IMG/VR virus record: IMGVR_UViG_3300032053_000040
Coordinates: 1-64,000 of that record
Direction: 5' to 3' (one strand)
DNA length: 64,000 nucleotides
Origin: a virus
The translations under genes and the position numbers were made by a program. Under the pieces are notes generated by a model. That model saw nothing but the letters and a program-made list of their open reading frames with translations. It searched no databases and was not told the DNA's origin. This document shows, piece after piece, positions 899 to 61,756 of the stretch. The first letter of the stretch is position 1, and every line of letters begins with the position of its first letter.

Positions 899-1062
899 GC
901 AATAGGCGAACCCTCTTTGGCAAAACTATTAATAAGACAAACAAGCAAAACGATCTAAGAAAGGAACGATCCGCTTTATTTGCCGAGCTCATAAATATAT
1001 GCGGCAAAGATAAAAAGATAATACAACTTGCCAGAAAATATTATCGCGAGGATACAACTTGA
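886..1062 (+). CDS. small basic protein, unknown
   Basis: 58 residues from an ATG inside the end of the neck gene. It is Lys/Arg/Asn-rich with a helical C-terminal half (IQLARKYYRED). Its stop overlaps the TTG start of tnpB. Translational coupling and compact spacing suggest a real viral gene, but the TnpB element begins exactly here, so the C-terminus may have been changed by the insertion. Function unknown. Confidence 0.45.
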   Translation: MGGVSNRRTLFGKTINKTNKQNDLRKERSALFAELINICGKDKKIIQLARKYYREDTT

Positions 1063-2270: not shown

Positions 2271-2303
2271 ACAAAATCAAAATCAAGAGTGGGGTATTGT
2301 ATT

Positions 2304-2885: not shown

Positions 2886-2913
2886 ATTTAACCGCTTATA
2901 TATTTCAGGTTAA

Positions 2914-3738
2914 ATGGTTGAGATAGCTCCAGGAGTGCATAAGCCGCTTCTGGTTTACTTCTGGGTCAGGACGCTCGAAGATGGCCATACGATAGAGTGC
3001 CAGTTCGATCTGGACACGGGCGAGCCCCGAAGCTGGCTCCCGGTTCCTGACAAGCTAACTCAGGTAATCCTGTATCCGGTTTACCAGGAACTGTCTGACC
3101 TTATGGCCCAGTGGGGCGAATTCGGTGTTCCCAACAGTCGCCCAAAGGTCAAAGTAGATCTAAACAAGGATAAGGTTATAACGAAGGTCGAATTTCAGAG
3201 ACGTTTCTTCTGGGGCCCCACACATCACGCAGAACAGATTATCCAGGTAGGCGAGAAACCAATCTGGAATCTCGTTAACGAGCTCCACTTCACGTATTAC
3301 TATCTTTGCAGCAAATGTAAAAACAAGTTCCAGCTGGAGGGAGGCGCTCCGTTGGTCTGCCCCGCCTGTGGTATAAGAAACGAATGGGAGTGCCATAGGT
3401 GCGGCGAGATCAAGTTCGGTGAATATTATTGTCTCGACTGCGGTATAAAATGGAAACGCGATGGGGAATACAAGTACGGCTCAGAGGTCTTCTGCCCCAA
3501 ATGCGGGCTTATAGCCAAACCCAAAGGCGAGATCAAAACCAAACCTCTTTTCCAGGGCGACGGTAAAGTAGAGTGCCCGGATTGCCTTGAGGATGGCAGA
3601 ATCCAGGGGTTGGTCGAAATTGAGAACCTTGAGCTCAAGTGCTTCTCCTGGCTCGAGACAAAACATGTTATCGGTATTGAAGGTAACTACGAGCAAGAGA
3701 TAGGCGACGACGAGATCCTGCGGAGGGATCTATCTTGA
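2914..3738 (+). CDS. multi-zinc-ribbon protein, unknown
   Basis: 274 residues. After a ~130-residue N-terminal beta-rich region come consecutive Cys pairs: CSKC, CPAC, CHRC, CLDC, CPKC and CPDC (about 135-230), which would bind about three zinc ions as zinc ribbons. A TATA-like TTATATATTT lies 12-20 bp before the ATG, too close to serve as its promoter with a normal leader. It lies between structural genes and overlaps the fibre gene, so a structural or assembly role is more likely than DNA binding. No family recognised. Confidence 0.7.
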   Translation: MVEIAPGVHKPLLVYFWVRTLEDGHTIECQFDLDTGEPRSWLPVPDKLTQVILYPVYQELSDLMAQWGEFGVPNSRPKVKVDLNKDKVITKVEFQRRFFWGPTHHAEQIIQVGEKPIWNLVNELHFTYYYLCSKCKNKFQLEGGAPLVCPACGIRNEWECHRCGEIKFGEYYCLDCGIKWKRDGEYKYGSEVFCPKCGLIAKPKGEIKTKPLFQGDGKVECPDCLEDGRIQGLVEIENLELKCFSWLETKHVIGIEGNYEQEIGDDEILRRDLS

Positions 3739-7633: not shown

Positions 7634-8025
7634 CACTAACTATTGGAGATGTAAGAAACGTCCTGAATATACCGGACAAAGAAGAGCTATCGGATGCGGT
7701 TATCACCCAGAACATGACCTCTGCCGGGATAATGATAGACGCCATCAATAGAGGAGGCGCATCGGGACCTATAGTAGACGAGGCAAAACTCCGGCTGGCA
7801 TCTTACCTGTCGTATCTCTCCACCGCAGACCACATAGTCCACGACCTTCCTGGCGAGATAGACCAAGACGAACACCGGTGGCAACCTACAGAAGATGTCA
7901 TTGTACGAGAGAGATCGGAAAAGCTGGCCGCCCTTAAGCAAGCTTCAGACGAGGCAATAGCAGCGATGATATCGACCTTCAGACGCGGCCGCAGACCAAT
8001 GATGGGTAGCGCGAGGATATCGTGA
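7630..8025 (+). CDS. head-tail connector / adaptor-like protein
   Basis: 131 residues from ATG 7630 (ATGA overlap). N-terminal MTLTIGDVRNVLNI followed by a helical region and a basic tail resembles small adaptor proteins (HK97 gp6 / SPP1 gp15 type) that sit under the portal. The assignment rests on size, the D-V-R--L start and gene order before the terminator and sheath genes. No decisive motif. Confidence 0.45.
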   Translation: MTLTIGDVRNVLNIPDKEELSDAVITQNMTSAGIMIDAINRGGASGPIVDEAKLRLASYLSYLSTADHIVHDLPGEIDQDEHRWQPTEDVIVRERSEKLAALKQASDEAIAAMISTFRRGRRPMMGSARIS

Positions 8026-8624
8026 TAGGCTCGGAGACAAAAGACAAACTGCTTGCCTGGCTGCCCACGATCCTGGCCGGCCAGGAGCTGGAGCTTATAG
8101 AGACGGCCGACTATATGGGTAGCTATCCGGTTCCGTCGATGAGCATAAGTTACCTCTCTGCTGGCCCCATCCAGAGGTGGGCAGGCGCTGCACCAATGAG
8201 CATTCTCCCCAACGAGAACGGAGACTACGATGAGAAGTACGGCCAGCACCACAAGCTCACGATCTCGATCGGGTTAAGGTCTTACGATTCCAGACAGCTA
8301 GACGACATGTCAAACGATTTCTTGAAAAAGATTTTCAAGAACCGCCAGCTGCTCTCTCTCCGACGAGACGGGTTCTGTTTCGTTGAAGTCCTCTCCAATC
8401 GGATCAGGCTGACGGAACGCGACGAGAAATCATCGAAAAAGATCTATAGGGCCATCTTCGATTTATTATTTGAATACGAAATCTGCTGGCTAGGCGATGA
8501 GCCTGCAATAATGAAGTTTGGAGCTGATGTAACTGTTCCAGGAAGCGATCCGCTTCATCTTTTCCAGGAGGTTCTCGAAAAGACGGTAGGCTTTGCGATG
8601 AGTTGCATATTAGTTAAGGAGTGA
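8022..8624 (+). CDS. probable tail terminator / neck protein
   Basis: 200 residues, GTG start overlapping the upstream stop. Mixed alpha/beta with a central region reading H-K-L-T-I-S-I-G-L-R-S-Y-D followed by a helix. Many tail terminators have this layout: a beta sheet reporting on dimension-type repeats, then a helix. Position directly before the sheath gene fits a tail terminator that caps the tube. Family match not certain. Confidence 0.5.
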   Translation: MIGSETKDKLLAWLPTILAGQELELIETADYMGSYPVPSMSISYLSAGPIQRWAGAAPMSILPNENGDYDEKYGQHHKLTISIGLRSYDSRQLDDMSNDFLKKIFKNRQLLSLRRDGFCFVEVLSNRIRLTERDEKSSKKIYRAIFDLLFEYEICWLGDEPAIMKFGADVTVPGSDPLHLFQEVLEKTVGFAMSCILVKE

Positions 8625-12444: not shown

Positions 12445-15054
12445 ATGGCACTCAGAGATCTCATCATCAGGCTGGCTATCCAGAACGCTGACGTAGCGCA
12501 GCGTGTCGAGGCACTCAAAGAGAACGTCAAGACCGTCAACGGCATGACGGCCCGGGCGTCCATTGACGTCAACACTTCTAAAGCAGTTGCATCACTCAAC
12601 CAGCTAAAACTACAGATCCATGATCTGGATAAGAGTTGCCTCAAGCTCCAGGCTAACTCGACGATTATGAGTTCCGCTTTTAGCTCCCTTTCGTCGATCG
12701 GCCACGCTGCTACGTCAAAACTAGCCGCCGGGTTTGGATTAGTTAATTCGGCTATGGCGTCTGTCGCCGCTCAATCAAGTGCCGTTACGGCGCATATTAA
12801 GAAAAATTGGAATGACATCGAAAGCGACATCAAAAAAGTAGCTGCCGTTAGCACTGGTTTTTCCATAGGCTCGATCTACATGGCCGCAGGCGTCCAGGCC
12901 AACCTAGAAACAATCAAAGGAACACGAGGCGAGGAGGCGGCGGCGGCATACGCTCCATGGATAAAACAAGGAAGAAAATTAAGATATACAGATGAATCCA
13001 CACGAGGCCAGCTTGCTGAAACTGCTGCCAAATACCTCCGAGGCACCTCAACCGAAGACCAGATACAATTTCTCACTCTACTTGAAAAGGAAGGAGCCCG
13101 GGAACGGGCATCGCCCGAAGCACTCGGAAACGTCATGGAATCTTTGGCAACTGGACGTTTATCGACGATCAAGAGGGAATTGCCGGGGATGGGGATAGAC
13201 GTAGATGCCATCCAAGCTCGTGCTGAAAAACAGATGGAGAATCCGTTCTTTATGCGAGCCCATCCCGGGATGACAAAAGAGGACGTAGTATCTCAAGAAT
13301 TCGTCAAAGAGTTTACAAAATGGGGCCAGGAGACAGAGATCCCCGGTGTAGGTAAAACTCTTCAAGACATTAATGTAGATCTCGAGCCCATCGATAAATT
13401 CAAGTCTGAGATAAAAGATATCTCGACCACTCTCGGCGATTCCCTTAAGCCAGCTCTTTTCGCAGTTAACAACGTCCTCGAAGCCTTCAACGAGTTCCTG
13501 CAGAACGTTCCCGGTGCCGGGCCAGTCATAGCCATAAGCATAGGATTTGCAGCCATAGCGTCAACTGGCATCATCATGGCGGCAGCGTTGCTAAGTGCTT
13601 CAACTGCTTTAGGGATAAGTTCAGTCGCTGCCGGCGTAGCTTCCGTCGCTATAGGGGGGCTTAGGCTTGCCATGACTCTTCTAGCAGCCCATCCCATCAT
13701 TGCAGTTCTCCTTATCCTGGCGACCATATTGATCTACGTAGCCACTCGCACAGACCTATTGCAGAAAGCCTGGGAGAAGCTCCAGGGGATCAAGGTAGGC
13801 GAGATCATAGGTGGCGGGATCGCTTTTGCCGTTGCCTTATGGGAGAAGGGGGTCAAACTTGCCATGTCCCTCTGGGATATACTGATGAATCTAGGAAAAA
13901 TGGGCGGGATTAAACTGCCACTTGCATTAGCTCTCGGCCCTCTTGGACTGGTCTTTGGTATCGCCCTTCCTCTCGTCATAAAGCTGCTGACATCGATGGT
14001 CAACTGGGGAGAACTCTCGACCAACGTCCTGAAATTTATTCAGCAAATCCTGGAGGATTTACTGAATGTTTTCGAACCGGTCTCCAATTTCATCAAAAAG
14101 ATTTACGATATGTTTGTATGGCTGTCAGAAACGCTCGGTATCACAAAGCCTCCTGAACCTGGAGTGACGAGGGGGGGAAAAAGTGTCGAGATGCCTTTAG
14201 CCGGGGGGGGCGAATTCAAACCGTCAAATATCCTCGGAGGTGCTGGAAATTATTATATCAAAGACTTACTCGAAGAGCTTGGTTATTTTTCCGACATACC
14301 AGAAGCCTTACTTGCGATGGCTAGAAACGGGATCACTCCAATATACGATAGCGCCGAGCAACCTGGTGGGGTGGTGGCACCCGGCGCGACAGAGCCCGAA
14401 AAGGAGCCCGAAAAGACCAGTAAAAAGTATGATCCTAACCTCTGGTACAAGACCGATGCTGGCGACCTCATCACCGGGACAATAGCAACCGAATTAGCAG
14501 CTCGGTTCGGAGTGGACTACGAAGGACCGTTTACAAAGGAAGGCCATCCAGTAGGCCAAACAAAAGCCGCTCCAATAGGAAATGTGCTGAAGGATATTAA
14601 ATCGGTTATAGAACCCACTCCAAAGGATATCAAACCCATCATAGACGAGAAGCCATTTGTCCCTCCACCAAAACAGGACATTGTAGAGGCGTATGATCCT
14701 AAGTATGATCAAACCCTCTGGACATTCGGCGGGCAGGAAGGAGCCACGATTACCAAAACCGGCAAGATGATGGTCCATGGTCCGATTGAAGAAGTCGTCC
14801 CGATGGCCGAAACTATACGAGGCCCGGGAGCTGTTGCCAGGGCCCTACGTGACCTCGACCTCTTCCAACGTTCACGTCCGTTCCTGGAGGGTGACCAAAA
14901 ACAGCCTGGACAGGTGATTAGCGTCAATTTCAATTCTCCATTGATCGGGGAGGCCACTATTGCAAGCCAATTCGACCTTGAGGATCTGATGTGGCAGCTA
15001 CAAGGCAAAATCGCGGATAAGATCTTGAGAGAACTAGGGTATCTGAGGGGTTGA
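12445..15054 (+). CDS. tape measure protein
   Basis: 869 residues. Ala/Lys/Asn-rich helical N-terminus, then hydrophobic Ala/Gly/Ile segments around residues 355-445 and 460-515 (several membrane-like stretches), then Pro-rich linkers with KEPEKTSKKYDP and a charged C-terminus. This is the usual layout of tape-measure proteins, which set tail length and help DNA cross the membrane. Length implies a tail of roughly 130 nm at about 0.15 nm per residue, a general rule. No lytic domain (SLT, peptidase) was seen. Confidence 0.85.
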   Translation: MALRDLIIRLAIQNADVAQRVEALKENVKTVNGMTARASIDVNTSKAVASLNQLKLQIHDLDKSCLKLQANSTIMSSAFSSLSSIGHAATSKLAAGFGLVNSAMASVAAQSSAVTAHIKKNWNDIESDIKKVAAVSTGFSIGSIYMAAGVQANLETIKGTRGEEAAAAYAPWIKQGRKLRYTDESTRGQLAETAAKYLRGTSTEDQIQFLTLLEKEGARERASPEALGNVMESLATGRLSTIKRELPGMGIDVDAIQARAEKQMENPFFMRAHPGMTKEDVVSQEFVKEFTKWGQETEIPGVGKTLQDINVDLEPIDKFKSEIKDISTTLGDSLKPALFAVNNVLEAFNEFLQNVPGAGPVIAISIGFAAIASTGIIMAAALLSASTALGISSVAAGVASVAIGGLRLAMTLLAAHPIIAVLLILATILIYVATRTDLLQKAWEKLQGIKVGEIIGGGIAFAVALWEKGVKLAMSLWDILMNLGKMGGIKLPLALALGPLGLVFGIALPLVIKLLTSMVNWGELSTNVLKFIQQILEDLLNVFEPVSNFIKKIYDMFVWLSETLGITKPPEPGVTRGGKSVEMPLAGGGEFKPSNILGGAGNYYIKDLLEELGYFSDIPEALLAMARNGITPIYDSAEQPGGVVAPGATEPEKEPEKTSKKYDPNLWYKTDAGDLITGTIATELAARFGVDYEGPFTKEGHPVGQTKAAPIGNVLKDIKSVIEPTPKDIKPIIDEKPFVPPPKQDIVEAYDPKYDQTLWTFGGQEGATITKTGKMMVHGPIEEVVPMAETIRGPGAVARALRDLDLFQRSRPFLEGDQKQPGQVISVNFNSPLIGEATIASQFDLEDLMWQLQGKIADKILRELGYLRG

Positions 15055-15058
15055 TTTC

Positions 15059-15499
15059 ATGCAGCTAAACGACAAAGGCGGGCTGTCGAATCCGTTCGAG
15101 TCGACGATAGATAGCTATGGCGATCCATTCCAGGTAGAGATAGGGTCGATAAAACTCGGGATAAGAAGTATGGTTAATCCCGACCAATCCAGGACGAACC
15201 CTATTGAAATCAAATGGAGCCAGGAGAATAAGGTCGAAGAACAGGATACTCCAGGTGATAGACCCAAGACGGAATGTACCATTTCAAACGGACTGTATTA
15301 CTGCACGATATCGTTTGCCACCAAGCAGAAGGATCTTTTGGAGCAAGTTGAGAAGATGAAAGCAGGACCTCACGTCGTAAAAACCTATTTCAAAACCGCC
15401 TGCATGTACTTGATGAAAAAGGACGTCACGCAACCAAAAGGCATGAAAGATCCTAAGCAAAACGTCGTGCTCAATCTCAAAGAGGCCTACGATGCTTAG
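15059..15499 (+). CDS. baseplate / tail-tube-initiator-like protein
   Basis: 146 residues, starting right after the tape measure. Contains Q-V-E-I-G-S-I-K-L-G-I-R-S and a mixed strand/helix layout similar to small baseplate proteins between tape measure and hub (such as gp53/LysM position proteins). No LysM motif is visible, so only the location supports the call. Overlaps the next gene by 8 nt. Confidence 0.55.
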   Translation: MQLNDKGGLSNPFESTIDSYGDPFQVEIGSIKLGIRSMVNPDQSRTNPIEIKWSQENKVEEQDTPGDRPKTECTISNGLYYCTISFATKQKDLLEQVEKMKAGPHVVKTYFKTACMYLMKKDVTQPKGMKDPKQNVVLNLKEAYDA

Positions 15500-40592: not shown

Positions 40593-40679
40593 GCCGCTTT
40601 AGCTCAGGTAGGCCAGAGCGCCCGGCCTGTACTGAATCAGGAAACCGGAAGATCGCCGGTTCGACTCCGGCAAGCGGCT
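40593..40679 (+). tRNA. tRNA-Thr (UGU) with a 12-nt intron
   Basis: Acceptor GCCGCTT (40593) pairs with AAGCGGC and T73 (40679). D-stem GCTC/GAGC, T-arm GCCGG-TTCGACT-CCGGC. The anticodon region is CCCGG-CC-TGT-A, intron 40632-40643 (CTGAATCAGGAA), A-CCGGA. Anticodon TGT is 40628-40630. The intron sits at the canonical 37/38 site: exon CCTG pairs with intron CAGG, with 3-nt bulges TAC and AAA, a bulge-helix-bulge cut after the second bulge base. G1-C72 and T73 fit archaeal tRNA-Thr. C27-A43 is mispaired and C33 replaces U33. Confidence 0.8.
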
Positions 40680-43358: not shown

Positions 43359-43461
43359 AGAAAACTATAAATACCTACCATGTATATATATCATAACCAA
43401 TCATTTTATCCCCTAATAGGTTGGGGGATAGGTTGGCTAAAAAGGAGGCGAAAAGGCGATG
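43359..43461 (+). repeat. duplicated promoter-leader, copy 1
   Basis: 103 bp, 102 identical to 47874-47976. Contains ACTATAAATACC (TATA 43366-43373), a hairpin TATCCCC (43407-43413) / GGGGATA (43424-43430), AAGGAGGCGAA ribosome site and the ATG of the next gene at 43459. The only difference is in the hairpin loop (T 43422 versus G 47937). Confidence 0.95.
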
Positions 43462-47873: not shown

Positions 47874-47976
47874 AGAAAACTATAAATACCTACCATGTAT
47901 ATATATCATAACCAATCATTTTATCCCCTAATAGGTGGGGGGATAGGTTGGCTAAAAAGGAGGCGAAAAGGCGATG
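47874..47976 (+). repeat. duplicated promoter-leader, copy 2
   Basis: 102 of 103 identical to 43359-43461. Same TATA (47881-47888), hairpin TATCCCC (47922-47928) / GGGGATA (47939-47945), ribosome site and start codon (47974). The single change is in the loop. Confidence 0.95.
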
Positions 47977-48637: not shown

Positions 48638-48883
48638 ATGCAAGTCTCCATAATAAACTCGGACGAGGGACTCTTCAAGGTCACCAGCGCCAAGGATGAA
48701 TCAAAGTTCTACGAGGTCCAGCTAGATCCCCGGGTGGCAACCTGTACCTGTCCACATTTCAAGCTCAGGTGTGCCAGGGCTGGCCTGGAATGTAAACATA
48801 TATCCCAAGTTAGAAGCATTTTGGTGGATGTGAATAATGAAAACAATTGTTTTGACACAGGGATATGTAACAATGGTGGATGA
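48638..48883 (+). CDS. SWIM zinc-finger protein
   Basis: 81 residues. C-T-C-P-H-F and after ~8 residues C-K-H-I, the SWIM signature C-x-C-x(n)-C-x-H. Second SWIM gene after 32433. The last ~16 residues (NNENNCFDTGICNNGG) are polar and overlap the HNH gene, hinting the original end was cut. Confidence 0.7.
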   Translation: MQVSIINSDEGLFKVTSAKDESKFYEVQLDPRVATCTCPHFKLRCARAGLECKHISQVRSILVDVNNENNCFDTGICNNGG

Positions 48884-49331
48884 TTGGAATTACGAACGAT
48901 TGAATCGATATAAGTGGCACGTAACTAAAAGGCATGTTTATTTGTATGCAACCCGCAGTTATAGTTGTAAAGGGCACAAGAATAGTATCGGAATGCACAA
49001 TGTAATAATAGGAATAAAAGGCGTTGATCATATTAATGGCAATGGTCTAGATAATCGCGAATGCAATCTAAGACCTGCAAGCAGATCACAAAACGCCGCG
49101 AACAGAGGGCCGCAAAAAAATAACACAAGTGGATATAAAGGTGTATATTGGCACGCAAAAATGAAAAAATGGCGGGCAATGATTATGGTAAAACCAAAAC
49201 TGAAATCCCTTGGTCTTTTTGACGATATCAAAGATGCGGCAAACGCCTATAACGAAGCCGCGAAAAAATATTACGGGAATTATGCAAAATTAAACAATCC
49301 GAAGATAGAGTTCGAGGAGGCAGAAACGTGA
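48837..49331 (+). CDS. HNH-AP2 homing-type endonuclease
   Basis: 164 residues. D-H-I-N-G-N-G-L-D-N-R-E-C-N-L-R-P-A is the HNH core, then S-G-Y-K-G-V-Y-W and W-R-A-M-I with L-G-L-F-D-D-I-K-D-A-A-N-A-Y-N-E-A-A the AP2 DNA-binding domain. Complete. Genes of this kind move between phage genomes. Codon use is A-rich compared with neighbours (many AAA/AAT), fitting recent arrival. Confidence 0.9.
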   Translation: MKTIVLTQGYVTMVDDWNYERLNRYKWHVTKRHVYLYATRSYSCKGHKNSIGMHNVIIGIKGVDHINGNGLDNRECNLRPASRSQNAANRGPQKNNTSGYKGVYWHAKMKKWRAMIMVKPKLKSLGLFDDIKDAANAYNEAAKKYYGNYAKLNNPKIEFEEAET

Positions 49332-51623: not shown

Positions 51624-51946
51624 GCATGGCAAAACCATTCCGGCAGCTCACAAGAGCAGAAAAGGAAAAGATAGCACAGGCCAGGGAGTTATACAAGAAC
51701 TTCCTGGACGAGGACGAAGACACGAAGGGAATACTCGACAAGATCTACGGAGCCGGGAAATGGCACGCGCTATTCGATGCTCAAAGAAGGGCCCTGTGGA
51801 GGACCGGACGGGAGATGAAGTGGGAAGGCCTCATAAGCCACTGTCGAGACTGCAACGACTTCTGGAAATTCACAGCAGAAGAGACTCTGGAAGTCACAGA
51901 CAACGACACGTTCTACATGGGGTTGGGGTCAGTAGCTCCCCCTTAA
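51620..51946 (+). CDS. hypothetical protein with Cys pair
   Basis: 108 residues. Helical basic N-terminus (KPFRQLTRAEKEKIAQAREL), later C-R-D-C (about 75) and a Trp-rich middle. Ends before the sugar cassette. No family. Confidence 0.6.
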   Translation: MSMAKPFRQLTRAEKEKIAQARELYKNFLDEDEDTKGILDKIYGAGKWHALFDAQRRALWRTGREMKWEGLISHCRDCNDFWKFTAEETLEVTDNDTFYMGLGSVAPP

Positions 51947-51970
51947 TTCCCCCTCCATTTTTGAGGTCTC

Positions 51971-52768
51971 ATGGAAAAATGTGATCGTTGCGGCGATCCA
52001 GGCGCATCCTTCGTGGAGACGGATCCGGAGTGCCGGCTGGGTATCTTCATGTGCCCAAAGTGCAAACTATGGTGGGATAGTGAAAAGCGTGGTGAAGCTA
52101 TATCGAGATACATTGTAATAGGCAGCTCCCCGTGGTCAACAAAAGTTTATCAAGAGACGATCTGCACGTTTCCTGGTGAGTGGTATTTCCTAGATGCCCC
52201 CGATCTTGACCACCTCAGATCAGTGAAACCGTCTCTGGTTTTCTTCCTCCACTATTCCAAAAAGGTTCCTGACGAAATCGTAAATGGCTTCGAATGTGTC
52301 TTGTTTCATATGACAGATGTTCCGTTTGGTCGTGGAGGCAGTCCTCTCCAAAACCTGATAACCAGAGGTCTTCGGAAGACAAAGCTCACAGCACTGCGGA
52401 TGACAAGCGACTTCGATGCTGGCCCCGTCTACCTTCAAAAAGATCTTTGCCTAGAAGGGAACGCAGAGGAGATATACCTCCGAGCAACACGTCTTGCAGC
52501 AGAAATGATCAGGCAAATTTCTCTCGAAAGGCCTATTCCGAGGCTACAAACCGGAGATGTAACAGTATTCAAAAGACGCAGGCCTGAAGAAAGCCAAATC
52601 TCTACGGCCTCTTCTCTACTGGAACTACACGATCACATTCGTATGCTCGATGCTGAGGGGTATCCTAAAGCCTTCATAGATTTCGATGGGTTTAGGTTTG
52701 AGTTCAGCCGTGCTGCTCTCTATAGCGATCGGATAAAAGCCGACGTGGAGATCAGAAAGTTTATATAG
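51971..52768 (+). CDS. formyltransferase-like protein with N-terminal zinc ribbon
   Basis: 265 residues. Residues 1-40 hold CDRC and CPKC, a zinc ribbon not usual in the family. From ~45 a formyltransferase fold follows: S-L-V-F-F-L-H-Y-S-K, then F-H-M-T-D-V-P-F-G-R-G-G-S-P-L-Q-N-L (about 112-129) and D-A-G-P-V-Y. These match the sugar N-formyltransferase / methionyl-tRNA formyltransferase-like group found in glycan gene clusters. Asp and His residues for catalysis are present. Predicted to formylate an amino sugar, next to the Pse-like genes. Confidence 0.7.
   Translation: MEKCDRCGDPGASFVETDPECRLGIFMCPKCKLWWDSEKRGEAISRYIVIGSSPWSTKVYQETICTFPGEWYFLDAPDLDHLRSVKPSLVFFLHYSKKVPDEIVNGFECVLFHMTDVPFGRGGSPLQNLITRGLRKTKLTALRMTSDFDAGPVYLQKDLCLEGNAEEIYLRATRLAAEMIRQISLERPIPRLQTGDVTVFKRRRPEESQISTASSLLELHDHIRMLDAEGYPKAFIDFDGFRFEFSRAALYSDRIKADVEIRKFI
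52760..52767 (+). promoter_or_regulatory. TATA box for the PIG-L / dehydratase operon
   Basis: TTTATATA, about 28 bp before ATG 52795 and overlapping the end of the previous gene; the transcript would be nearly leaderless. Confidence 0.55.
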
Positions 52769-52794
52769 TCGTATCCTGAACAGATATCAAGACG

Positions 52795-53463
52795 ATGTTC
52801 GAATCTCCGGAGAGAGTACTCGTCGTCGCAGCGCATCCCGATGATGAAGTTCTTCTTTGTGGTGGATCTATCGCTAAACTCTCAGAGCGTGGCTCATCTG
52901 TAAACATCCTTTTTCTCTCAACTGGCGCGGTCTCTCGCACAGGCGATTTTTCAGAGGTAAACATTCTGCAAAACTACGCAATCGAAGCCAGCAAGATTCT
53001 TGGATCAAGTATCTTATCATTCGACTCTTTTCCCGATAACGAGATGGATTCCCTACCACGTTTGGATATCATAAAAAAGGTAGAATCTTTTATAAATCAC
53101 GTAAGACCGCAAGTCATATTCACTCATTATCCTGGTTGTGCAAACATCGATCACAGACGCACATGCGAAGCAGTTATGATCGCCACCAGGCCCTGGAAAG
53201 AACGGATCAACGTCTTTGGAGGATCGGTCTTGAGCAGCACGGCCGTCCTCTATCCGTCTGAGTGGAGTCCGCAATTCTTCGTTCACCTCTCGAAAAGCCA
53301 CGTTAAAAAGAAGCTTAAAGCTCTATCAATGTACATCTCCGAAACCGGGCCTATGCCTCATCCACGATCAAAAGCTGCTGTTTTATCAGATGCCATACTG
53401 ACTGGCTCGAGGTGCTATTCAAAATATGCAGAATCTTTTATGGTCTTAAGGGAGCACTGGTGA
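52795..53463 (+). CDS. PIG-L / LmbE-type N-deacetylase
   Basis: 222 residues. V-V-A-A-H-P-D-D-E-V-L (about 10-20) is the family signature, with I-D-H-R-R-T (about 118) carrying the third zinc ligand. PIG-L enzymes remove acetyl groups from GlcNAc-type sugars. ATG overlaps the dehydratase start region (TGATGG). Predicted to act on UDP-sugar or glycan intermediates of this cassette. Confidence 0.8.
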   Translation: MFESPERVLVVAAHPDDEVLLCGGSIAKLSERGSSVNILFLSTGAVSRTGDFSEVNILQNYAIEASKILGSSILSFDSFPDNEMDSLPRLDIIKKVESFINHVRPQVIFTHYPGCANIDHRRTCEAVMIATRPWKERINVFGGSVLSSTAVLYPSEWSPQFFVHLSKSHVKKKLKALSMYISETGPMPHPRSKAAVLSDAILTGSRCYSKYAESFMVLREHW

Positions 53464-54431
53464 TGGATCTCGACGGAGCAAACGTACTGATAACTGGTGG
53501 AACAGGGACATTCGGTCGAGAAGCCTTAAAACTCCTCCCCCAGTTCAGGCCTCGCCGGCTAATCGTTTTGAGTCGGGACGAGTATAAGCAGCATTATCTT
53601 CAGAAAGAGTTTCCAGAAAACGATAGCTCCATATATCGCTATATTCTTGCAGACGTCCGGGATAAAGATAAACTCTCAGTTGTGACTCGTAACGTTGACG
53701 TCATCTTTCATGCAGCGGCACTTAAGCAAGTTCCCTTCTGCGAGACGAACCCCGACGAAGCCATCCAAACCAACGTATTAGGTACGAAAAACGTTTGCGA
53801 AGCCTCCATGAAGAACGACGTTGACTCTTTGATATTCGTCTCCTCGGACAAAGCAGTAGAGCCAGTAAACCTCTACGGAGCTACCAAGATGGTAGGGGAG
53901 CGGCTAGTGAACCAGTACAACTTCAAGTCCGACCACACGAAATTCTTCACAGTCCGTTACGGGAACGTTTTCAACAGCCGGGGCTCAGTAGTGGAACTTT
54001 TTCACCAGCAAAAAAGCGAAGGGGTTTTGACGTTAACTCATCCAGACATGACGAGGTTCTTTTTCCTCATCCAAGATGCCATCTTGTTTGCGGCTGGCGT
54101 AGGCGGTGCAGGAGGAGAAATTTTCGTTCCGGCGATGAAATCCATGCGAATATGTGACCTAGCAAAAGCGATCGCTCCTGAAGCAGAGATCAAGATCATA
54201 TTAAGGCGTCATGGCGAAAAGGTTCACGAAAAGCTTATCTCTTCCGACGAAGCGGACAGGACAGTATTCAAAAATAATAAATATATAATTCTTCCAAATG
54301 ACAGGAGGTTCAGTTTCTCGAGATATAATAATTCTCCCAAACAAGAAGGTCTTATCTACACGTCCGATCGCTGCTGCATGGATCTCGATGGAGTCAAAGA
54401 ATTCTTAAGAAATCACGACAGAAATATATAA
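53463..54431 (+). CDS. PseB/FlaA1-like UDP-GlcNAc 4,6-dehydratase
   Basis: 322 residues. N-terminal V-L-I-T-G-G-T-G-T-F-G-R-E (Rossmann TGxxGxxG), D-V-R-D and F-H-A-A-A-L-K-Q-V-P, then S-S-D-K-A and Y-G-A-T-K-M (about 137-142, catalytic Tyr/Lys region). This is the extended SDR of the 5-inverting dehydratase group (PseB, FlaA1, CapE). It would convert UDP-GlcNAc to the 4-keto-6-deoxy sugar, the substrate of a PseC-type aminotransferase. Confidence 0.8.
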   Translation: MDLDGANVLITGGTGTFGREALKLLPQFRPRRLIVLSRDEYKQHYLQKEFPENDSSIYRYILADVRDKDKLSVVTRNVDVIFHAAALKQVPFCETNPDEAIQTNVLGTKNVCEASMKNDVDSLIFVSSDKAVEPVNLYGATKMVGERLVNQYNFKSDHTKFFTVRYGNVFNSRGSVVELFHQQKSEGVLTLTHPDMTRFFFLIQDAILFAAGVGGAGGEIFVPAMKSMRICDLAKAIAPEAEIKIILRRHGEKVHEKLISSDEADRTVFKNNKYIILPNDRRFSFSRYNNSPKQEGLIYTSDRCCMDLDGVKEFLRNHDRNI

Positions 54432-54434
54432 ATA
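54425..54434 (+). promoter_or_regulatory. TATA box for the 54485 gene
   Basis: TATATAAATA with ~50 bp to GTG 54485, then AAAGGTGA before the start. It separates the dehydratase from the next gene. Confidence 0.55.
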
Positions 54435-54484
54435 CAAACAATGACATACAAGATACCAACTAAAATTAAAAAAGGTGATGGGCG

Positions 54485-55192
54485 GTGGCTAAAGAAAAGA
54501 GACCTATAAAATATATCGAAGGCTACTCCGAAAGCCTCTGGAAATCGCTAGTCGTCAAATCAATCCGGATGGGGTGGATAAATGGCCTGGTGGAAGCTGA
54601 AAAAAGGCTTCCCAAATCTACTATACAGAGGTTCTTAATCAGCGGTATATTTGAAGATCTATGGCCTCATCCAAGCGAAATATGGGCAGCGATAGATATG
54701 GCGAACCGTGGGGATTACGCAGGTCTCTTGAGCATAGACCCCCACCATGGAAAAGGTCTCTCTGAAACGTACTGCAATTATCACCCAACGTCGGACGAGT
54801 ATTGGTACAACAACCGTGAGTTTATATTCGAGAAGCTGAAAGAAAATCTCCCGGGCCTCTACGTGCCCACAAATTCGTTAGGGAACGCTCTTAACTGGAT
54901 GGTCCATAAACATCTCATCCCCCAAAAATCGCGAACGCTGGACGAAACCCCATTTAGAGGCATCCCTCCAGCATTCGCCGATCAGCACACGCCAGAGGGA
55001 TGGGAAAGAAAAACCCCCTTTACTCTCCTCTGCGGCCATCCCAAAAGCCATCGCATGCTGGGCTCGCAAGTGCAAAAGATTGGATGGGATGGCATCAGGC
55101 GTCAGGTTCATTCGGAAGGGATCCTGCCTAAAAAAGAAACACTCCCCCCAACAACAAGGCAAGGCCAGCAGACTCTCATGGTGTTTTTCTAA
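54485..55192 (+). CDS. RarA/MgsA C-terminal-like phage protein
   Basis: 235 residues, GTG start. S-L-W-K-S-L-V-V-K-S-I-R-M-G-W (about 15-29) followed by F-L-I-S-G-I-F-E-D-L-W-P and repeated helices recall the C-terminal oligomerisation region of MgsA/RarA-like proteins. No Walker motifs, so any ATPase part is absent. Role unclear; it is not an obvious glycan enzyme. Confidence 0.5.
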   Translation: MAKEKRPIKYIEGYSESLWKSLVVKSIRMGWINGLVEAEKRLPKSTIQRFLISGIFEDLWPHPSEIWAAIDMANRGDYAGLLSIDPHHGKGLSETYCNYHPTSDEYWYNNREFIFEKLKENLPGLYVPTNSLGNALNWMVHKHLIPQKSRTLDETPFRGIPPAFADQHTPEGWERKTPFTLLCGHPKSHRMLGSQVQKIGWDGIRRQVHSEGILPKKETLPPTTRQGQQTLMVFF

Positions 55193-55193
55193 A

Positions 55194-56369
55194 ATGCTCA
55201 ACGAAGAACCAAAAGAAGTGCTCTGGCTCGTGGCCGGAAACGAAGAAAATGAAGGTATGATACCGATCATGGAGAAATACAGAAGCCTCTCAAATCTCCT
55301 CAACACCAGGCACGTTCTTGTTACTAATTCGAAAAACTATAATATTTTTCAGGGGTCAACTTATTTTTTCGATCCGGGAACTAAGCAACTCAGCCTTCCA
55401 GAGAAATATAAATTTCTAGTTAATATGGCAGATATGCACGGCCTATTCGATTCGGCTGATATGATGGTTATAGGTGGGTTCTATCCAGTAGTGCTTATTA
55501 TGGCGTATGCTATTGATTGTAAGATGACCTCGAAAACAAGAAAGTTCTGCACCAAACCGATAATAGTAATGAACCCCAAAATCCCCGAAGGAGAACTATC
55601 CGACATTAATCCGATCTACCTCGATCCTTTCTGGTGGATGTTAGGGCATTACGATAACATTACTCTTGCAGTCGGCCAGCTCAAAAACGAGATGTATCTT
55701 GCTAAAAAGTATCTCCTCAAGTTCTATCCTCGTGCTAAAGTGAAGCAAACGCTGCTGCCCTTCGTAGAATATACCTACGATGATAGTCCCTGGTCTGAAA
55801 AGGAAGACAAAGTAATCTGGACAGGAAGGTACAATTCTCTTAAACAACCGGATCTGGCACTGAAGACGCTTGTGCTCTTGGAATCAGTTGGAATCAAGAC
55901 CGAGATGTACGTCCCTACTGCAAAAGCATCAAATACCGGCAAGGTACGAAAGGCACAGAAACTTCTTTCCGAAGTCAATATCAACTTAGATAGAGAGAGC
56001 TTCTGGCAAAAAGCTGGTTCTGCAAAGGTCATCCTTATCACCCCCTTGATAGAGGGGTTTGGAACAGGCATGATGGAAATAATCAGTCGGGGAGTTATAC
56101 CTGTTATATGGGGCGCAAAATGGAACAGAGATTACATCTCCCCGGACGAGGATTGGCCTCTGGTATTCAAGTTGCCTGGAGAGGGTGCTGAGATGTGTAA
56201 ACTTGCCCTCAAAGATTACGATTACTATGCACGCCTTCTGAGAGATAACTTAAAGAAGCGTTACTCAAGGGGGTACGATTGGGAGTTCTTATTAAAAGGC
56301 GTTTGGAAGTCGCATATCAACGGCAGGCATAGCGAAGAGTTCTCATTAGAGTATAAAATTTATGACTAA
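55194..56369 (+). CDS. glycosyltransferase (GT4-like)
   Basis: 391 residues from ATG 55194. N-terminal V-L-W-L-V-A-G-N-E and a C-terminal Rossmann-like half: W-T-G-R-Y-N-S-L-K-Q-P-D-L-A (about 235) and T-P-L-I-E-G-F-G-T-G-M-M-E-I-I-S (about 293-308), the E-x-F-G-x-x-x-x-E motif of GT-B enzymes that binds the nucleotide sugar. Likely adds the modified sugar to a virion or host glycan. Confidence 0.65.
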   Translation: MLNEEPKEVLWLVAGNEENEGMIPIMEKYRSLSNLLNTRHVLVTNSKNYNIFQGSTYFFDPGTKQLSLPEKYKFLVNMADMHGLFDSADMMVIGGFYPVVLIMAYAIDCKMTSKTRKFCTKPIIVMNPKIPEGELSDINPIYLDPFWWMLGHYDNITLAVGQLKNEMYLAKKYLLKFYPRAKVKQTLLPFVEYTYDDSPWSEKEDKVIWTGRYNSLKQPDLALKTLVLLESVGIKTEMYVPTAKASNTGKVRKAQKLLSEVNINLDRESFWQKAGSAKVILITPLIEGFGTGMMEIISRGVIPVIWGAKWNRDYISPDEDWPLVFKLPGEGAEMCKLALKDYDYYARLLRDNLKKRYSRGYDWEFLLKGVWKSHINGRHSEEFSLEYKIYD

Positions 56370-57051
56370 AAATAATAAAGCAGCCCAAGATACGTATCTC
56401 TCGCTGGAAGAGATAGATCTGGATCTTGTAGACGACAACGAATTGTCTGTAAACGAAGAGGATGATCACACGTTCCAGCGTTTGAGAGACGAAATCAAAT
56501 CGCGTGGAATGGTAGACGTCCCGACCGTTCGGCCTATCGAGGGGGGTAGATATAAGGTTCTCGGCGGGCGTCATAGACTAGCGGCTTCAAGGGCAAATGG
56601 TAACAAAAAAGAACACGTAGTTGTCTACCGTAGAGCCATAAAATCCAAGGAAGACGAATTCAACCTCGTCAACAACCTGAACGCCATCAAAGGCACTCTC
56701 CGCAAAGGGAGCATCCTGAAAGTTATCAAGCAGCAGAACCTCGATCCCACGAAGCTCGATATACATAAAATGCCTTATGATCTTCTGATGCCTGTGATAA
56801 CTAGCGAGGATTTCGAATCCATCCAGAATGAAGCCCAACGTAACGCAAAGATCAACGCCATGTCCCTCTCGATAGCGAAAGAGATTGCAGCTACGCTTAT
56901 AGACGAGAGGGACGAGCTCCTCTCTTTCATGGTCGTCAAGGACAAGCCGGTCGCAGTGATCCGCATCCCCTTCCAGAGTTCGAAAGAGGCTCGGGAGAAG
57001 GCGAACTCTTTGAAAAACATAATCCAGAAAGCCCTGGAGGGCATAATTTGA
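56362..57051 (+). CDS. ParB-like N-terminal domain protein
   Basis: 229 residues, overlapping the previous end. V-N-E-E-D-D-H-T-F and V-L-G-G-R-H-R-L-A-A-S-R (about 70-81) are the ParB phosphate box. C-terminal part is helical, with no methyltransferase-like region. It differs from the long ParB fusion at 24197. Possible nucleic acid or NTP-binding protein in the cassette. Confidence 0.75.
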   Translation: MTKNNKAAQDTYLSLEEIDLDLVDDNELSVNEEDDHTFQRLRDEIKSRGMVDVPTVRPIEGGRYKVLGGRHRLAASRANGNKKEHVVVYRRAIKSKEDEFNLVNNLNAIKGTLRKGSILKVIKQQNLDPTKLDIHKMPYDLLMPVITSEDFESIQNEAQRNAKINAMSLSIAKEIAATLIDERDELLSFMVVKDKPVAVIRIPFQSSKEAREKANSLKNIIQKALEGII

Positions 57052-57758
57052 AAGTGTTCATGAACCAGCCCAACTATCTGCCTTGGTATGGCTTCATGGG
57101 CATGATGTCTCAAGCTGACGTCTTTCTTGTGATGGATGAGATCCAGTACGAAAAAGAGGAATGGCAGAATCGCAACAGGATCACAAGCAGCAACCCCAAA
57201 AGGTGGGAATGGATTACCGTTCCTGTCAGCGCCTCATCGAAATCCAAGATCTCAGAAGTGTCTTCGGTTGGAGCGTGGCGCAAGCAGCACATAAGTCAAA
57301 TCCACCACGCCTATAGCAGAGCAGCCTATTATGAGTGCGTCTCAGGGGATATCTATTCTGCTATATGGGGATCTACAAACTCTTTGCTAGATATCGATAT
57401 GAGGTCAACGAAAACTCTAATGGAGGTCTTGGATTTCAAACCGGATATCAAGTACATGTCCGATCTAGGATGCACCTCCAAAAACCAGCAGCTTGTCCAG
57501 GATCTAGCCGGTTCGGTAGGCGCTGATCAGATTATCGTCCCGAAGAACGCATTGAAATATTGGGATCTCTCTAAGAAGACTAGCCAAGATCTGTTGATCC
57601 ACGAATTCCCAGATATCTCTTACAAGCATTTAAATATCTTCGTGCCAAGATTATCAGTAATAGACATGCTATTCAATCTAGGCCCGAAGACCAGCAGGAA
57701 TCTCATCATGGACTACGAGAAGTATGCCATAACAGAGGTAATTCATGGAACCGGCTGA
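57048..57758 (+). CDS. WbqC-like protein
   Basis: 236 residues, TTG start. N-Q-P-N-Y-L-P-W-Y-G-F-M, then D-V-F-L-V-M-D-E-I-Q-Y and W-Q-N-R-N-R-I are the WbqC family signature. These proteins occur in O-antigen and surface-sugar clusters and were described in amino-sugar modification; precise chemistry remains unclear. Supports the reading of the region as a glycan cassette. Confidence 0.85.
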   Translation: MKVFMNQPNYLPWYGFMGMMSQADVFLVMDEIQYEKEEWQNRNRITSSNPKRWEWITVPVSASSKSKISEVSSVGAWRKQHISQIHHAYSRAAYYECVSGDIYSAIWGSTNSLLDIDMRSTKTLMEVLDFKPDIKYMSDLGCTSKNQQLVQDLAGSVGADQIIVPKNALKYWDLSKKTSQDLLIHEFPDISYKHLNIFVPRLSVIDMLFNLGPKTSRNLIMDYEKYAITEVIHGTG

Positions 57759-58374
57759 ATATAGTCAGGCTCTCAGGGAATTTAGTGATGATCCCAGGGC
57801 GGTAGGGTACAACGGTCCTCAGTCCCAGGATCTCATGTTCTCAAGGTTCCTTCAGCTTTTCAAGTTTGAACGAGATCAAATCCGTGTTCATGAAGTGGGA
57901 TGCGGATTATGCCATTTCAAGGAATACCTGAAAAACAGGCGAAGAGTTCTCTACTCTGGCAATGATACTCTCAGGGATATGGTCGTCTTCTCCAGACAGA
58001 AGCACCCGGAAACTGCTATTTATCACGGCCGCTTACGGGACAATCTCCAATTTCTTTATACGGATTACGTGGTTGCCATCACGACCTTCAACGAATCACC
58101 AAAAGAGGAGTTGCTGGATGAGCTGCAAGTTATGTACGCGGCCGCTAAAAAGGGGATTGCCTTTGATTGCTTCTCAAGTTACGTCGATTTCATAGATAAG
58201 AAGATTACTTATATAGACCCTGCGGAGATGCTATCTTTTTGTCTCCAAACCCTCTCCAGGCATGTTTTTTTAGATCACAGCCTCCCCAACTACAGATATG
58301 TGGTCTTTGTCTACAAACCTGCTTTTATTGATTCGATATATCCTAATAAATCACAATATTTTGCAAAAAAATAA
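57745..58374 (+). CDS. SAM-dependent methyltransferase-like protein
   Basis: 209 residues. V-H-E-V-G-C-G-L-C-H-F (about 50-60) is the SAM-binding G-x-G loop of class I methyltransferases, followed by D-T-L-R-D-M and a C-terminal strand region. Overlaps the WbqC-like gene by 14 nt, so co-translation is likely. May methylate a sugar. Confidence 0.65.
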   Translation: MEPAEYSQALREFSDDPRAVGYNGPQSQDLMFSRFLQLFKFERDQIRVHEVGCGLCHFKEYLKNRRRVLYSGNDTLRDMVVFSRQKHPETAIYHGRLRDNLQFLYTDYVVAITTFNESPKEELLDELQVMYAAAKKGIAFDCFSSYVDFIDKKITYIDPAEMLSFCLQTLSRHVFLDHSLPNYRYVVFVYKPAFIDSIYPNKSQYFAKK

Positions 58375-58389
58375 CTGAGCGTGTTATGA

Positions 58390-59043
58390 ATGGAACCAGA
58401 AAAAACACCACCGGGACAAGTTGCTAAGAAGTACACTCTGATAGTTAACGGCGAGGAGATGCTTCTACACGATCCGTCGCCAGAGGTTGTGGAGAGCCTA
58501 CGTGCCTCGGGACATGAAGTCAGGGAAGAGGTAATCGCTAAGAAGCCGAGGTTCTCCAAGATCACCTCGGAGATAAAGGGGAGGCTTCTGGAGTTGCTCG
58601 CTTTGGGGAATACATTTATGCACTCTTGTAACGTGTTGGACGTCTCTCCGTCTTACATAATCGAGTACAGGGCCAAATATCCTGCTTACGATGCCAAAGT
58701 CCGAGCAGCGATGAAGACCCAGCAGGCTGCTATGGCAGATGCTCTGTACACTACTGGAGTCGGCGGTAACGTTACTGCCCAGATATTTTTCCTCGTGAAC
58801 CGCACCAGGTTCTTAAGGAGCAGCGATCCTGACAAGTGGATGAACACCCAGAACATCGAAGTTAGCGGGCCAGGGGAAGGGCCACTTGAGCTAATGTTTC
58901 TCTCGCCTGAAGAACGGGAACGCCGAATATTAGAGCTTTTGGATAAAAAAGCAAAGGATCTGCCCGGGGCTTCTGTGCGACCCAAGTTCCGTGAGCTGGC
59001 AAAAAACAAAAAGAACACGAAAAATGGGGCTAAAAGAGGCTAA
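58390..59043 (+). CDS. probable terminase small subunit
   Basis: 217 residues just before terL. Charged N-terminus, a helix-turn-helix-like segment (LLALGNTFMHSCNVLDVSPSY), and a helical middle with Q-Q-A-A-M-A-D-A-L-Y. Basic Lys/Asn C-terminus. Size, position and composition fit a TerS that recognises DNA and recruits TerL; no diagnostic motif. Confidence 0.6.
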   Translation: MEPEKTPPGQVAKKYTLIVNGEEMLLHDPSPEVVESLRASGHEVREEVIAKKPRFSKITSEIKGRLLELLALGNTFMHSCNVLDVSPSYIIEYRAKYPAYDAKVRAAMKTQQAAMADALYTTGVGGNVTAQIFFLVNRTRFLRSSDPDKWMNTQNIEVSGPGEGPLELMFLSPEERERRILELLDKKAKDLPGASVRPKFRELAKNKKNTKNGAKRG

Positions 59044-59063
59044 AAAGAATCGAAAGATGAAAT

Positions 59064-60620
59064 TTGGTTGCGAGTTTGAAACAACCGACCGCGAGTAAAA
59101 CTTCCATGGCCGCTTCAACGTGTAAACAATCCTCTCTGAATAATCCATACACGTTGAGTTTACTCCAGGAAGACGAGAAGTACCAATCCGAAGAGCACCT
59201 TCTAAATTTCACGACTGTTGCCTGGCCCATAATAAACCCGGCCACAACGTTTCTCCCCAACTGGCATATCGAATTGATCTGCGAATATCTGATGGCCGTG
59301 ACTCTCGGCGAGATCAAACGCCTAATAATAAACATCCCGCCAAGGTACGCGAAAAGTACCCTCGTAAGCCAGATGTGGCCGTGCTGGGAGTGGCTCCATA
59401 TCCCATCCCAAAGGTGGGTGTTCGCAAGCTATGCCTCCGACCTGTCGGTCCTGCAAAGCATAAAGCGCAAAGACATCATCCTCTCTGATTGGTACAGGAT
59501 GAACTGGTCTGAAATAGTAAAGCTCCGGGAAGATCATAATAGGAAGGCCGATTTCGTCAGTACAAAGAAAGGAGCTATGTACTCGACCTCAATCGGCGGC
59601 CAGGTAACGGGTATGGGTGGCAACCGGCTGGTTATCGACGACCCCACGAGCCCTCAAGAGGCCGAGTCAGAAGCAATGAGGGAGATGGCGAACACCTGGT
59701 ACTCAAATACGTTCCAATCTCGTCTCGATGACAAACAAACAGGATCTATAGTCCTAATCCAGCAGAGGCTCCACCAGAACGACATGACTGGATACCTCAC
59801 TGGCTTGGACGTCATGGATCTAAACAGTCATGTGCTCGAGGGAGAAGGCTGGACGTTACTAAGGATCCCGCTCATCTCCGAGCAGGACGAGGACATCTAT
59901 TCGCCTATCGGCAACAAGAGGCTCATAGTATCCCGCAAAGAAGGCGATCTGCTCTGGCCCGAACGAGAAGGCATGGAGCAGATCAAGGAGTACCAAAAGT
60001 TTGAGTACATTTTCGCTTCGCAACAGCAGCAACGCCCCTCCCCCAAGAAAGGCGCGATGTTCGAACGAGATTGGGTGCAGCAATACGATCACCTCCCCCC
60101 CGATATAGAAGCCTATATTATGTCAATAGATGCCACCTTCAAGGGCGGTCCCAAGTCGGCTTTTGTGGCAATCCAGGTTTGGGCTTGGAAGAGACCGAAC
60201 ATGTACTTCGATTACCAGGTTAGGGAGAAGATGAGTTTCACCAAAAGTCTCGACGAAATAATCAACGTGCTCGCTCTTTATCCTGGTCTCACTTCAAAAT
60301 TGATAGAAGAAGCCGCAAACGGCGATGCCATAATCGACGTGCTATCGGAGAAGATCGGGGGGATTGTGCCTGTTCGCCCCGTCGTTTCAAAAGAGTCACG
60401 GGCTTCATCCGTTACCCCCCTTTTCAGGTCAGGCAACGTCTACGTTAAGAAAGCTCCCTGGACACACGCCTTCATAAACGAACTGCTGAACTTCCCAGGC
60501 TCAACGTACAAAGACCAGGTAGATGCCATGAGCCAGGCCATATATTACATCCAAGAAGTGTTCGGAGGTCTCGGGAAAGAGAAACGAGCTCTGTTCGCTT
60601 TCGGGAGAGCCATACGATGA
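59064..60620 (+). CDS. terL: terminase large subunit
   Basis: 518 residues; TTG 59064, with ATG 59106 as a later start. Walker A-like P-P-R-Y-A-K-S-T (about 92-99; compare PPRxGKS), Walker B L-V-I-D-D-P (about 189-194), coupling region, then nuclease domain with M-S-I-D-A-T (about 353-358) and later E-E-A-A-N-G-D. This is the packaging motor and nuclease. The PseC-like gene starts 3 nt before its end. Confidence 0.9.
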   Translation: MVASLKQPTASKTSMAASTCKQSSLNNPYTLSLLQEDEKYQSEEHLLNFTTVAWPIINPATTFLPNWHIELICEYLMAVTLGEIKRLIINIPPRYAKSTLVSQMWPCWEWLHIPSQRWVFASYASDLSVLQSIKRKDIILSDWYRMNWSEIVKLREDHNRKADFVSTKKGAMYSTSIGGQVTGMGGNRLVIDDPTSPQEAESEAMREMANTWYSNTFQSRLDDKQTGSIVLIQQRLHQNDMTGYLTGLDVMDLNSHVLEGEGWTLLRIPLISEQDEDIYSPIGNKRLIVSRKEGDLLWPEREGMEQIKEYQKFEYIFASQQQQRPSPKKGAMFERDWVQQYDHLPPDIEAYIMSIDATFKGGPKSAFVAIQVWAWKRPNMYFDYQVREKMSFTKSLDEIINVLALYPGLTSKLIEEAANGDAIIDVLSEKIGGIVPVRPVVSKESRASSVTPLFRSGNVYVKKAPWTHAFINELLNFPGSTYKDQVDAMSQAIYYIQEVFGGLGKEKRALFAFGRAIR

Positions 60621-61756
60621 CCCGGGAAACTTTTTTGCCTTATGCACGACAGAAGATTGAGGAAGATGACATCCGGGCCGTGAACGAAGTTCTAAGATCG
60701 GATTTCATAACAACTGGCCCGAAAGTAATAGAATTTGAAGAATTTTTCTCAGATGTAGTCGAAGCGGAATATGCAGTCAGTTTCAGTTCCGGGACAGCAG
60801 CACTCCATGGGGCCATCTACGCTGCAAATATCGCAAAGGACGATGAAGTTGTGACCTCTCCGCTAAGTTTTTGCGCCACCTCAAATTGCGTTCTCTACCA
60901 GGGAGGACGCCCACTCTTTGCAGACGTAAGTTATGATACACTCAATCTTAACCCCAACGAGGTTGCCGATTTAGTCTCTACAAGAACCAAGGCCATCTTA
61001 GCAGTGGATTATGGAGGCCATCCCGCAGATCTGGATAGTTTAGCTCAAATCGCGGAAGATTCCAATCTTCTTCTGATAGAAGACGCATGTCATGCCCTCG
61101 GAGCCAAATATAAGGGAAAACCAATTGGCGGAATTAGTGACATGACAATTTTCTCTTTTCATCCGGTAAAACATATAACAACTGGAGAAGGAGGGATGGT
61201 TACAACCAACGACTGTGATCTTGCAAGACGTCTGACTCTTTTTAGGAACCACGGAATAGGACTTGATTTTAGGCAACGAAACCTGATAAGAACGTGGAAA
61301 TACGAAATGACCGATCTCGGATATAATTACAGGTTGACTGATATCGCATCTGCGCTTGGCATCTCCCAACTACGCAAACTCCCCGAAAATTTAAAACGTC
61401 GTCGGGAGATAGCAGCCATCTATAATAACGCATTTCAAAAAATACCGGGTCTGGTGTTGCCGAAGGAGCGATCGAACTCGATCTCGTCCTGGCACCTCTA
61501 TCCTGTTAGGTTCGATTTCAATATTATAAAATCGTCTCAATCAAGAATCTATTCGGACATGCACGCCGAAAACATAGGCGTTAACGTTCATTATATTCCG
61601 ATTTATGAACATCCATATTATAAAAATCTAGGTTATTATAAAAAATGTTCTGTAGCGGATGCCGCTTATAAATCAATCGTCTCTTTACCGATGTTCCACG
61701 GAATGACAGATTTTGATGCGGCAGATGTGATAGAGACATTAAAAAATGTGATTTAA
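60617..61756 (+). CDS. PseC-like DegT/DnrJ/EryC1 aminotransferase
   Basis: 379 residues. P-Y-A-R-Q-K-I-E-E-D-D-I-R-A-V near the start, F-S-S-G-T-A-A-L-H, E-D-A-C-H-A-L-G-A and F-S-F-H-P-V-K-H-I-T-T-G-E-G-G-M (catalytic Lys near 185). The last block is the hallmark of PseC. It would aminate the PseB product to a 4-amino-sugar, the step before a pseudaminic-acid-type or N-formyl sugar. Its place between terL and portal shows the cassette is mixed into the packaging module. Confidence 0.85.
   Translation: MTRETFLPYARQKIEEDDIRAVNEVLRSDFITTGPKVIEFEEFFSDVVEAEYAVSFSSGTAALHGAIYAANIAKDDEVVTSPLSFCATSNCVLYQGGRPLFADVSYDTLNLNPNEVADLVSTRTKAILAVDYGGHPADLDSLAQIAEDSNLLLIEDACHALGAKYKGKPIGGISDMTIFSFHPVKHITTGEGGMVTTNDCDLARRLTLFRNHGIGLDFRQRNLIRTWKYEMTDLGYNYRLTDIASALGISQLRKLPENLKRRREIAAIYNNAFQKIPGLVLPKERSNSISSWHLYPVRFDFNIIKSSQSRIYSDMHAENIGVNVHYIPIYEHPYYKNLGYYKKCSVADAAYKSIVSLPMFHGMTDFDAADVIETLKNVI

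Follow-up and report, generated by a model that had tools for sequence, protein, structure and literature searches.

The phage genome analysed here carries a partial set of genes for a pseudaminic acid (Pse)-type sugar beside its terminase genes. We consider the chances about even that this cassette stems from bacterial Pse clusters and serves to alter the Pse of the host, host enzymes finishing the sugar. The window, i.e. the whole stretch of DNA analysed, comprises bases 1-64000 of a virus record of 77,291 bases (about 77.3 kb). The terminal 38 bases are identical at both ends (window 1-38 and L002 17254-17291), and the record is therefore probably complete, with a length of about 77.25 kb. 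Genes for tail sheath, tape measure and baseplate are located at 3.7-19.9 kb, and matches to terminase, head-morphogenesis and major-capsid genes start at 58.4 kb and continue onward; the virus is therefore a large contractile-tailed phage.

A split cassette around the terminase genes

Enzyme genes were identified by matches to Pfam and NCBIfam profiles and backbone genes by PHROG. A head-to-tail run on the plus strand (51971-58374) starts with genes for a sugar N-formyltransferase (FT) of the 1ZGH/PF21553 subfamily (51971-52768; PF21553, E 2.2e-24; PDB 1zgh, E 1.6e-58), a PIG-L family N-deacetylase (52795-53463; PF02585, E 2.3e-23) and a PseB-like UDP-GlcNAc 4,6-dehydratase (53463-54431; PF02719, E 8.9e-86). 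These are followed by an ORF of 235 aa (54485-55192) with no match in Pfam, NCBIfam, PHROG or phage records, a GT-B-like glycosyltransferase gene with a proposed ATG start at 55194 (55194-56369), a ParB-like gene (56362-57051; phrog_26387, E 1.4e-10), a gene for a WbqC family protein of unknown function (57048-57758; PF08889, E 2e-48) and a SAM methyltransferase-like gene (57745-58374). Next on the same strand are the backbone genes for the small and large terminase subunits, TerS (58390-59043; phrog_309, E 1.8e-10) and TerL (59064-60620; phrog_38, E 3.6e-95), and finally the gene for the UDP-4-keto-sugar aminotransferase PseC (60617-61756), which overlaps the TerL gene by four bases. All ORFs of the cassette are intact. 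They do not form one block: the run is interrupted by the 235-aa ORF and the ParB-like gene, a non-sugar gene of the phage backbone, and PseC stands apart from the remaining genes, beyond TerS and TerL. GC3 values of the sugar genes range from 0.40 to 0.58, with PseC being lowest (0.397), compared to 0.52-0.77 for most backbone genes. Relative to the phage backbone, which is conserved, the sugar cassette is an insert.

According to the original prediction, the pathway was embedded between tail and packaging genes. The cassette indeed abuts the terminase genes, but the tail genes are about 30 kb away. The intervening 30 kb contain genes for replication and genes of unknown function (among them helicase, 28800, and HNH, 48837), and the immediate upstream neighbours of the cassette are of these types, with no tail genes among them. 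A tRNA-Ala (GGC) gene is also located in this region (40593-40679), and a repeat of about 98-103 bp, common to 43359-43461 and 47874-47971, occurs twice in the near relative L003 as well. L003 matches the window on both sides of the HNH endonuclease gene (48837-49331) without having the gene itself. A transposase-type gene is found at 1059-2270 (phrog_506), and L003 contains a distant homologue (14317-15324) in an extra 1.5 kb after its portal gene. Patterns of promoters and terminators did not exceed their frequency in shuffled sequence.

Every enzyme named in the original prediction corresponds to an existing ORF. Profile matches are significant for FT, PIG-L, the PseB-like protein, WbqC and PseC, but weak for the glycosyltransferase and the methyltransferase (E about 0.01-0.03). 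FT shows both features of the subfamily known from Pse clusters, the C-terminal PF21553 domain and the HMTD..GRGGSPLQNLI core. Compared with 78 homologues, it keeps 46 of 48 conserved columns, including His113 and Asp149. In the alignment the catalytic His and Asp are retained, and Leu is found where the Fmt/ArnA family has Asn; this position is Cys in two aligned relatives of the phage FT. These two relatives do not possess the N-terminal extension of the phage protein (window 51971-52108), about 45 residues with two CxxC motifs resembling a zinc ribbon. A GAGG sequence is found just 5' of the FT start codon.

PseC is likewise well preserved, scoring 455.7 bits with TIGR03588 (cut-off 423.5) and keeping 54 of 55 conserved columns, among them K185. 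The PseB-like protein is more divergent. Its best NCBIfam model is PseB (TIGR03589), yet the score of 309.5 bits is below the cut-off of 407.75; the catalytic residues D129, K130, Y138 and K142 are kept, and 21 of 100 conserved columns are changed (79 kept). In PIG-L, the AHPDDE and NIDH motifs are present, but 7 of 42 conserved columns are altered, e.g. D115C, and several residues invariant in 70 homologues are lost. Given these changes, a shift in substrate or a weaker constraint is possible for both PseB and PIG-L.

Bacterial counterparts and the missing steps

To place the cassette, 72 bacterial loci were drawn from GTDB genomes with a three-member FT alignment, FT being the sole selection criterion. 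In 71 of them FT adjoins PIG-L or PseI. Of the 72 loci, 47 are 18 kb or longer; among these, PIG-L and PseI are present in all 47, PseG in 45, PseC in 43 and PseB in 42, and the set of PseB, PseC, PseG, PseI and PIG-L is complete in 39. As scores for PseC (485 bits), PseG (237 bits) and PseI (479 bits) all exceed the curated NCBIfam cut-offs, they confirm the assignment of these clusters to a predicted pathway for pseudaminic, not legionaminic, acid. FT and PIG-L are thus, as judged from gene context, putative tailoring genes of Pse clusters, accompanying rather than replacing the complete pathway. Clusters such as L036 and L051 (Terriglobia) have PseB, PseC, FT and PIG-L in common with the phage, and L051 also WbqC. 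In L051, genes for PseG, WbqC, FT, PIG-L and PseI are consecutive, and in L036 PseG is fused to a GNAT domain. The phage proteins are 62-64% (FT) and 57-58% (PseC) identical to the best bacterial copies. In contrast to the bacterial clusters, the phage is devoid of PseG, PseI, PseF and PseH, and the terminase genes divide its cassette in two.

The absence of PseH/I/F-type steps, already noted in the original prediction, was borne out and extends to PseG. Profiles built from 63 (PseG), 80 (PseI) and 33 (PseF) bacterial sequences detected none of these enzymes in the whole 77-kb record. For PseH, searches with few seeds, one GNAT sequence and the PseG-GNAT fusion set, yielded no significant GNAT match in the record (best E 0.04). 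By the known route, synthesis of CMP-Pse is therefore predicted to be beyond the virus alone. From missing steps, the original prediction had suggested that the product may be a formylated amino sugar. This suggestion is weakened by the presence of PseI in 47 of 47 long bacterial FT loci; because FT and PIG-L sit in complete bacterial Pse clusters, an N-formylated sugar of the Pse type, completed by host enzymes, is more likely to be made. The proposals that PseB and PseC perform the first steps, that N-formylation takes place and that surface glycans are altered are still reasonable as putative functions.

A stand-alone pathway along the lines of the original prediction, in which PseB, PseC, FT and the phage glycosyltransferase make a 4-formamido-trideoxyhexose and, independently of any nonulosonic acid, transfer it to a glycan of the host or a protein of the virion, appears rather unlikely to us. 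It would account for the GT-B-like gene inside the cassette and for the absence of PseI, PseF and PseG, and it fits FT relatives such as ArnA, which formylate 4-amino sugars of NDP-sugars. However, the FT subfamily is associated with PseI-containing Pse clusters, PIG-L would have no obvious role, and the glycosyltransferase is too divergent to assign: it has a weak PF00534/GT4 match (E 0.01-0.02) and an E-x7-E motif read from the sequence (EGFGTGMME), and neither 199 genomes of Acidobacteriota nor phage records yielded a homologue.

For the preferred reading, alteration of host Pse, gene identities and bacterial context were observed, and from these we infer the remaining steps. Bacterial Pse clusters would have been the source of the cassette, which probably arrived in at least two pieces, with FT, PIG-L, PseB and others upstream of the terminase and PseC downstream. 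PseB and PseC would enlarge the pool of UDP-4-amino-4,6-dideoxy-L-AltNAc. Together, PIG-L and FT might replace N-acetyl by N-formyl, either on a precursor or on the finished sugar, and WbqC and the methyltransferase might add further decoration. N-formylated nonulosonic acids are known, an example being 5-N-formyl-legionaminic acid on the virus HRPV-1 and its host (PMC6137143). The host would supply PseG, PseI and PseF for the steps of hydrolysis, synthase reaction and CMP transfer, respectively. An altered Pse-type sugar could then appear on the flagella, the capsule or the O-antigen of the host and, with lower probability, on virions, and the benefit would plausibly be reduced adsorption by competing phages. 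Several points speak against this reading. A Pse pathway of the host is assumed, and PseB and PseC would be redundant if the host makes Pse; the divergent PseB and the altered PIG-L may each act on another substrate; and the relative L003 is devoid of most of the cassette.

A bacterial homologue of the phage methyltransferase, whose Pfam match is weak, lies in L119 (2299-2916; 97.8 bits) and adjoins WbqC, so that this pair occurs in bacteria too. Within 3.6-kb loci surrounding WbqC genes of Acidobacteriota, PIG-L, DegT aminotransferase, NeuB and homologues of the phage methyltransferase recur. In the acidobacterial WbqC loci L115-L144, a DegT aminotransferase, PIG-L or the methyltransferase of the phage type is often the neighbour of WbqC, which hints at a role of PF08889. 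No WbqC relatives were detected in a scan of viral contigs, structure prediction from three sequences reached a mean pLDDT of 51.8, and literature on WbqC together with FT, PIG-L or Pse offered nothing useful.

Relatives of the phage and the fate of the cassette

L003 matches the window in long pieces with 89-98% DNA identity. By blastn, a stretch of 5.8 kb (approximately 51790-57621) is missing from it and both flanks are joined, window position ~51,789 to ~57,622. The missing stretch covers FT, PIG-L, PseB, the 235-aa ORF, the glycosyltransferase, the ParB-like gene and the larger part of WbqC; the methyltransferase and PseC are retained. Since stumps of genes, ORF 51620 and WbqC, are left on the two sides, the arrangement argues for a putative deletion in L003 rather than an insertion in the window, although the junction was seen in only one IMG/VR contig and may be a misassembly. 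For the original prediction, absence of the cassette from closely related viruses without effect was to count against it; L003, which lacks the 5.8 kb in this one contig, counts against it in part. In the relative L009, TerS comes immediately after the ParB-like gene, and downstream of TerL are an ORF of 207 aa and the portal gene; WbqC, methyltransferase and PseC genes are not present there.

The gap in L003 with its gene remnants, the conserved residues lost in PseB and PIG-L and the absence of the middle steps would also suit a remnant in decay, i.e. a larger Pse cluster once carried, of which the middle was lost and the rest is disappearing, with no present function. This appears improbable, given intact ORFs throughout and the conserved columns kept in FT (46/48) and PseC (54/55). 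In addition, 21 synonymous and 12 non-synonymous differences separate PseC of the window from that of L003 (dN/dS 0.16), and dN/dS of the methyltransferase is 0.215. Such ratios show a pattern of constraint on both genes, some of which may predate the putative deletion. L003 keeps a constrained PseC though PseB is missing.

Decoration of the phage's own virion proteins appears more improbable still. Being adjacent to terminase and head genes, the cassette may be expressed late, and the 5-N-formyl-legionaminic acid of HRPV-1, made by the host, is present on the virus protein VP4 as well as on the S-layer of the host (PMC6137143). Yet no virion-specific feature was detected, position by itself is a weak indication, and the bacterial counterparts belong to clusters for cell-surface and flagellar glycans.

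Origins, other phages and known systems

In trees, the phage PseC is sister to PseC of Acidobacteriota (100/98) on a long branch, and FT groups loosely with sequences from cyanobacteria, Myxococcota and Chloroflexota; a single common donor of the cassette is not supported. TerL was also considered for host assignment. Acidobacteriota gave the best match (43%), but without synteny, and for the phylum of the L030 genome identity was at best 34% over the full length; no host is claimed. Among 50,697 phage records, the FT subfamily is essentially absent (best match 26%) and PseI was found in three. A scan of viral contigs revealed no relatives of the phage PseB. The PseC match in Pseudomonas phage Y5 adjoins an ArnA-like gene, and an arn operon is the likelier explanation there.

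In IMG/VR, 16 contigs encode a PseI-like NeuB, and TerL is located within about 10 kb in 10 of them, a proportion not far from chance for contigs of such sizes, with lineage members not being independent. Close abutment of Pse genes and TerL in three lineages is suggestive only. Pse-type cassettes near the terminase, from at least two lineages, were noticed in L025, L149, L150, L151, L153-L155 and L157-L159, the one in L151 including PIG-L. L025 (IMGVR_UViG_3300037440_000172, cassette 871-8463), L149 and L155 have PseI and a WbuX/HisF amidotransferase pair before TerL, to which L025 adds FT-PIG-L. A PseF-like gene, PseB and PseI are next to TerL in L150, L153 and L157-L159; cut-offs are exceeded by PseB of L153 (409.9 bits) and L158 (420.6 bits) and by PseI of L150 (426 bits). 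A fusion of 678 aa, cytidylyltransferase plus a glutamate-1-semialdehyde-aminotransferase-like part, is encoded in L150 (5266-7302; domains tested) and L153 (3680-5716). Like the window phage, L025, L149, L155, L150, L153 and L157-L159 carry Pse-type genes beside the terminase, but with PseI and the PseF-like gene, lacking in the window phage, their pathway is nearly whole; no publication on these contigs was encountered. The wider view that PIG-L and FT act as a two-enzyme acyl exchanger (N-acetyl to N-formyl) for Pse and that diverse tailed phages repeatedly install whole or partial Pse cassettes by the terminase, thereby recoding the surface nonulosonic acid of the host during infection, is put forward as a tentative and less probable extension.

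Pse is a sialic-acid-like bacterial surface sugar used by phages and animal hosts to recognise bacteria. If the preferred reading is true, rewriting of host surface sugars by phages extends from single tailoring genes to several steps of the Pse pathway. From the association of FT, PIG-L and PseI, a role open to testing also emerges for two gene families that many Pse clusters of bacteria contain, as does a lead on the uncharacterised WbqC family.

Phages converting O-antigens are already known (PMC8787464). In comparison with serotype conversion cassettes of the gtrABC type, the cassette does not contain the GtrA flippase and the GtrB bactoprenol glucosyltransferase, for which no Pfam or NCBIfam match was obtained among its proteins. 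Closer to the function proposed here are EpaA/EpaB of an Acinetobacter prophage, which convert Pse to 8-epiPse (PMC12053666), and the prophage acetyltransferases Atr29/Atr30, linked by correlation to 4-O-acetylation of nonulosonic acids (PMC6586298). As proposed here, both cases concern phage-borne genes acting on host Pse, or Pse/Leg for Atr29/Atr30. EpaA/EpaB are two genes for C8 epimerisation, likened by function to the PseB/PseC and N-acyl tailoring genes, and Atr29/Atr30 are single O-acetyltransferase genes, whereas the window phage harbors a multi-gene partial cassette. A partial PseB/PseC and tailoring set requiring completion by the host was not found in the open-licence literature searched. 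Alteration of host Pse by phages is already known, and the partial, putatively host-dependent cassette of PseB/PseC and tailoring genes would represent a new form of it.
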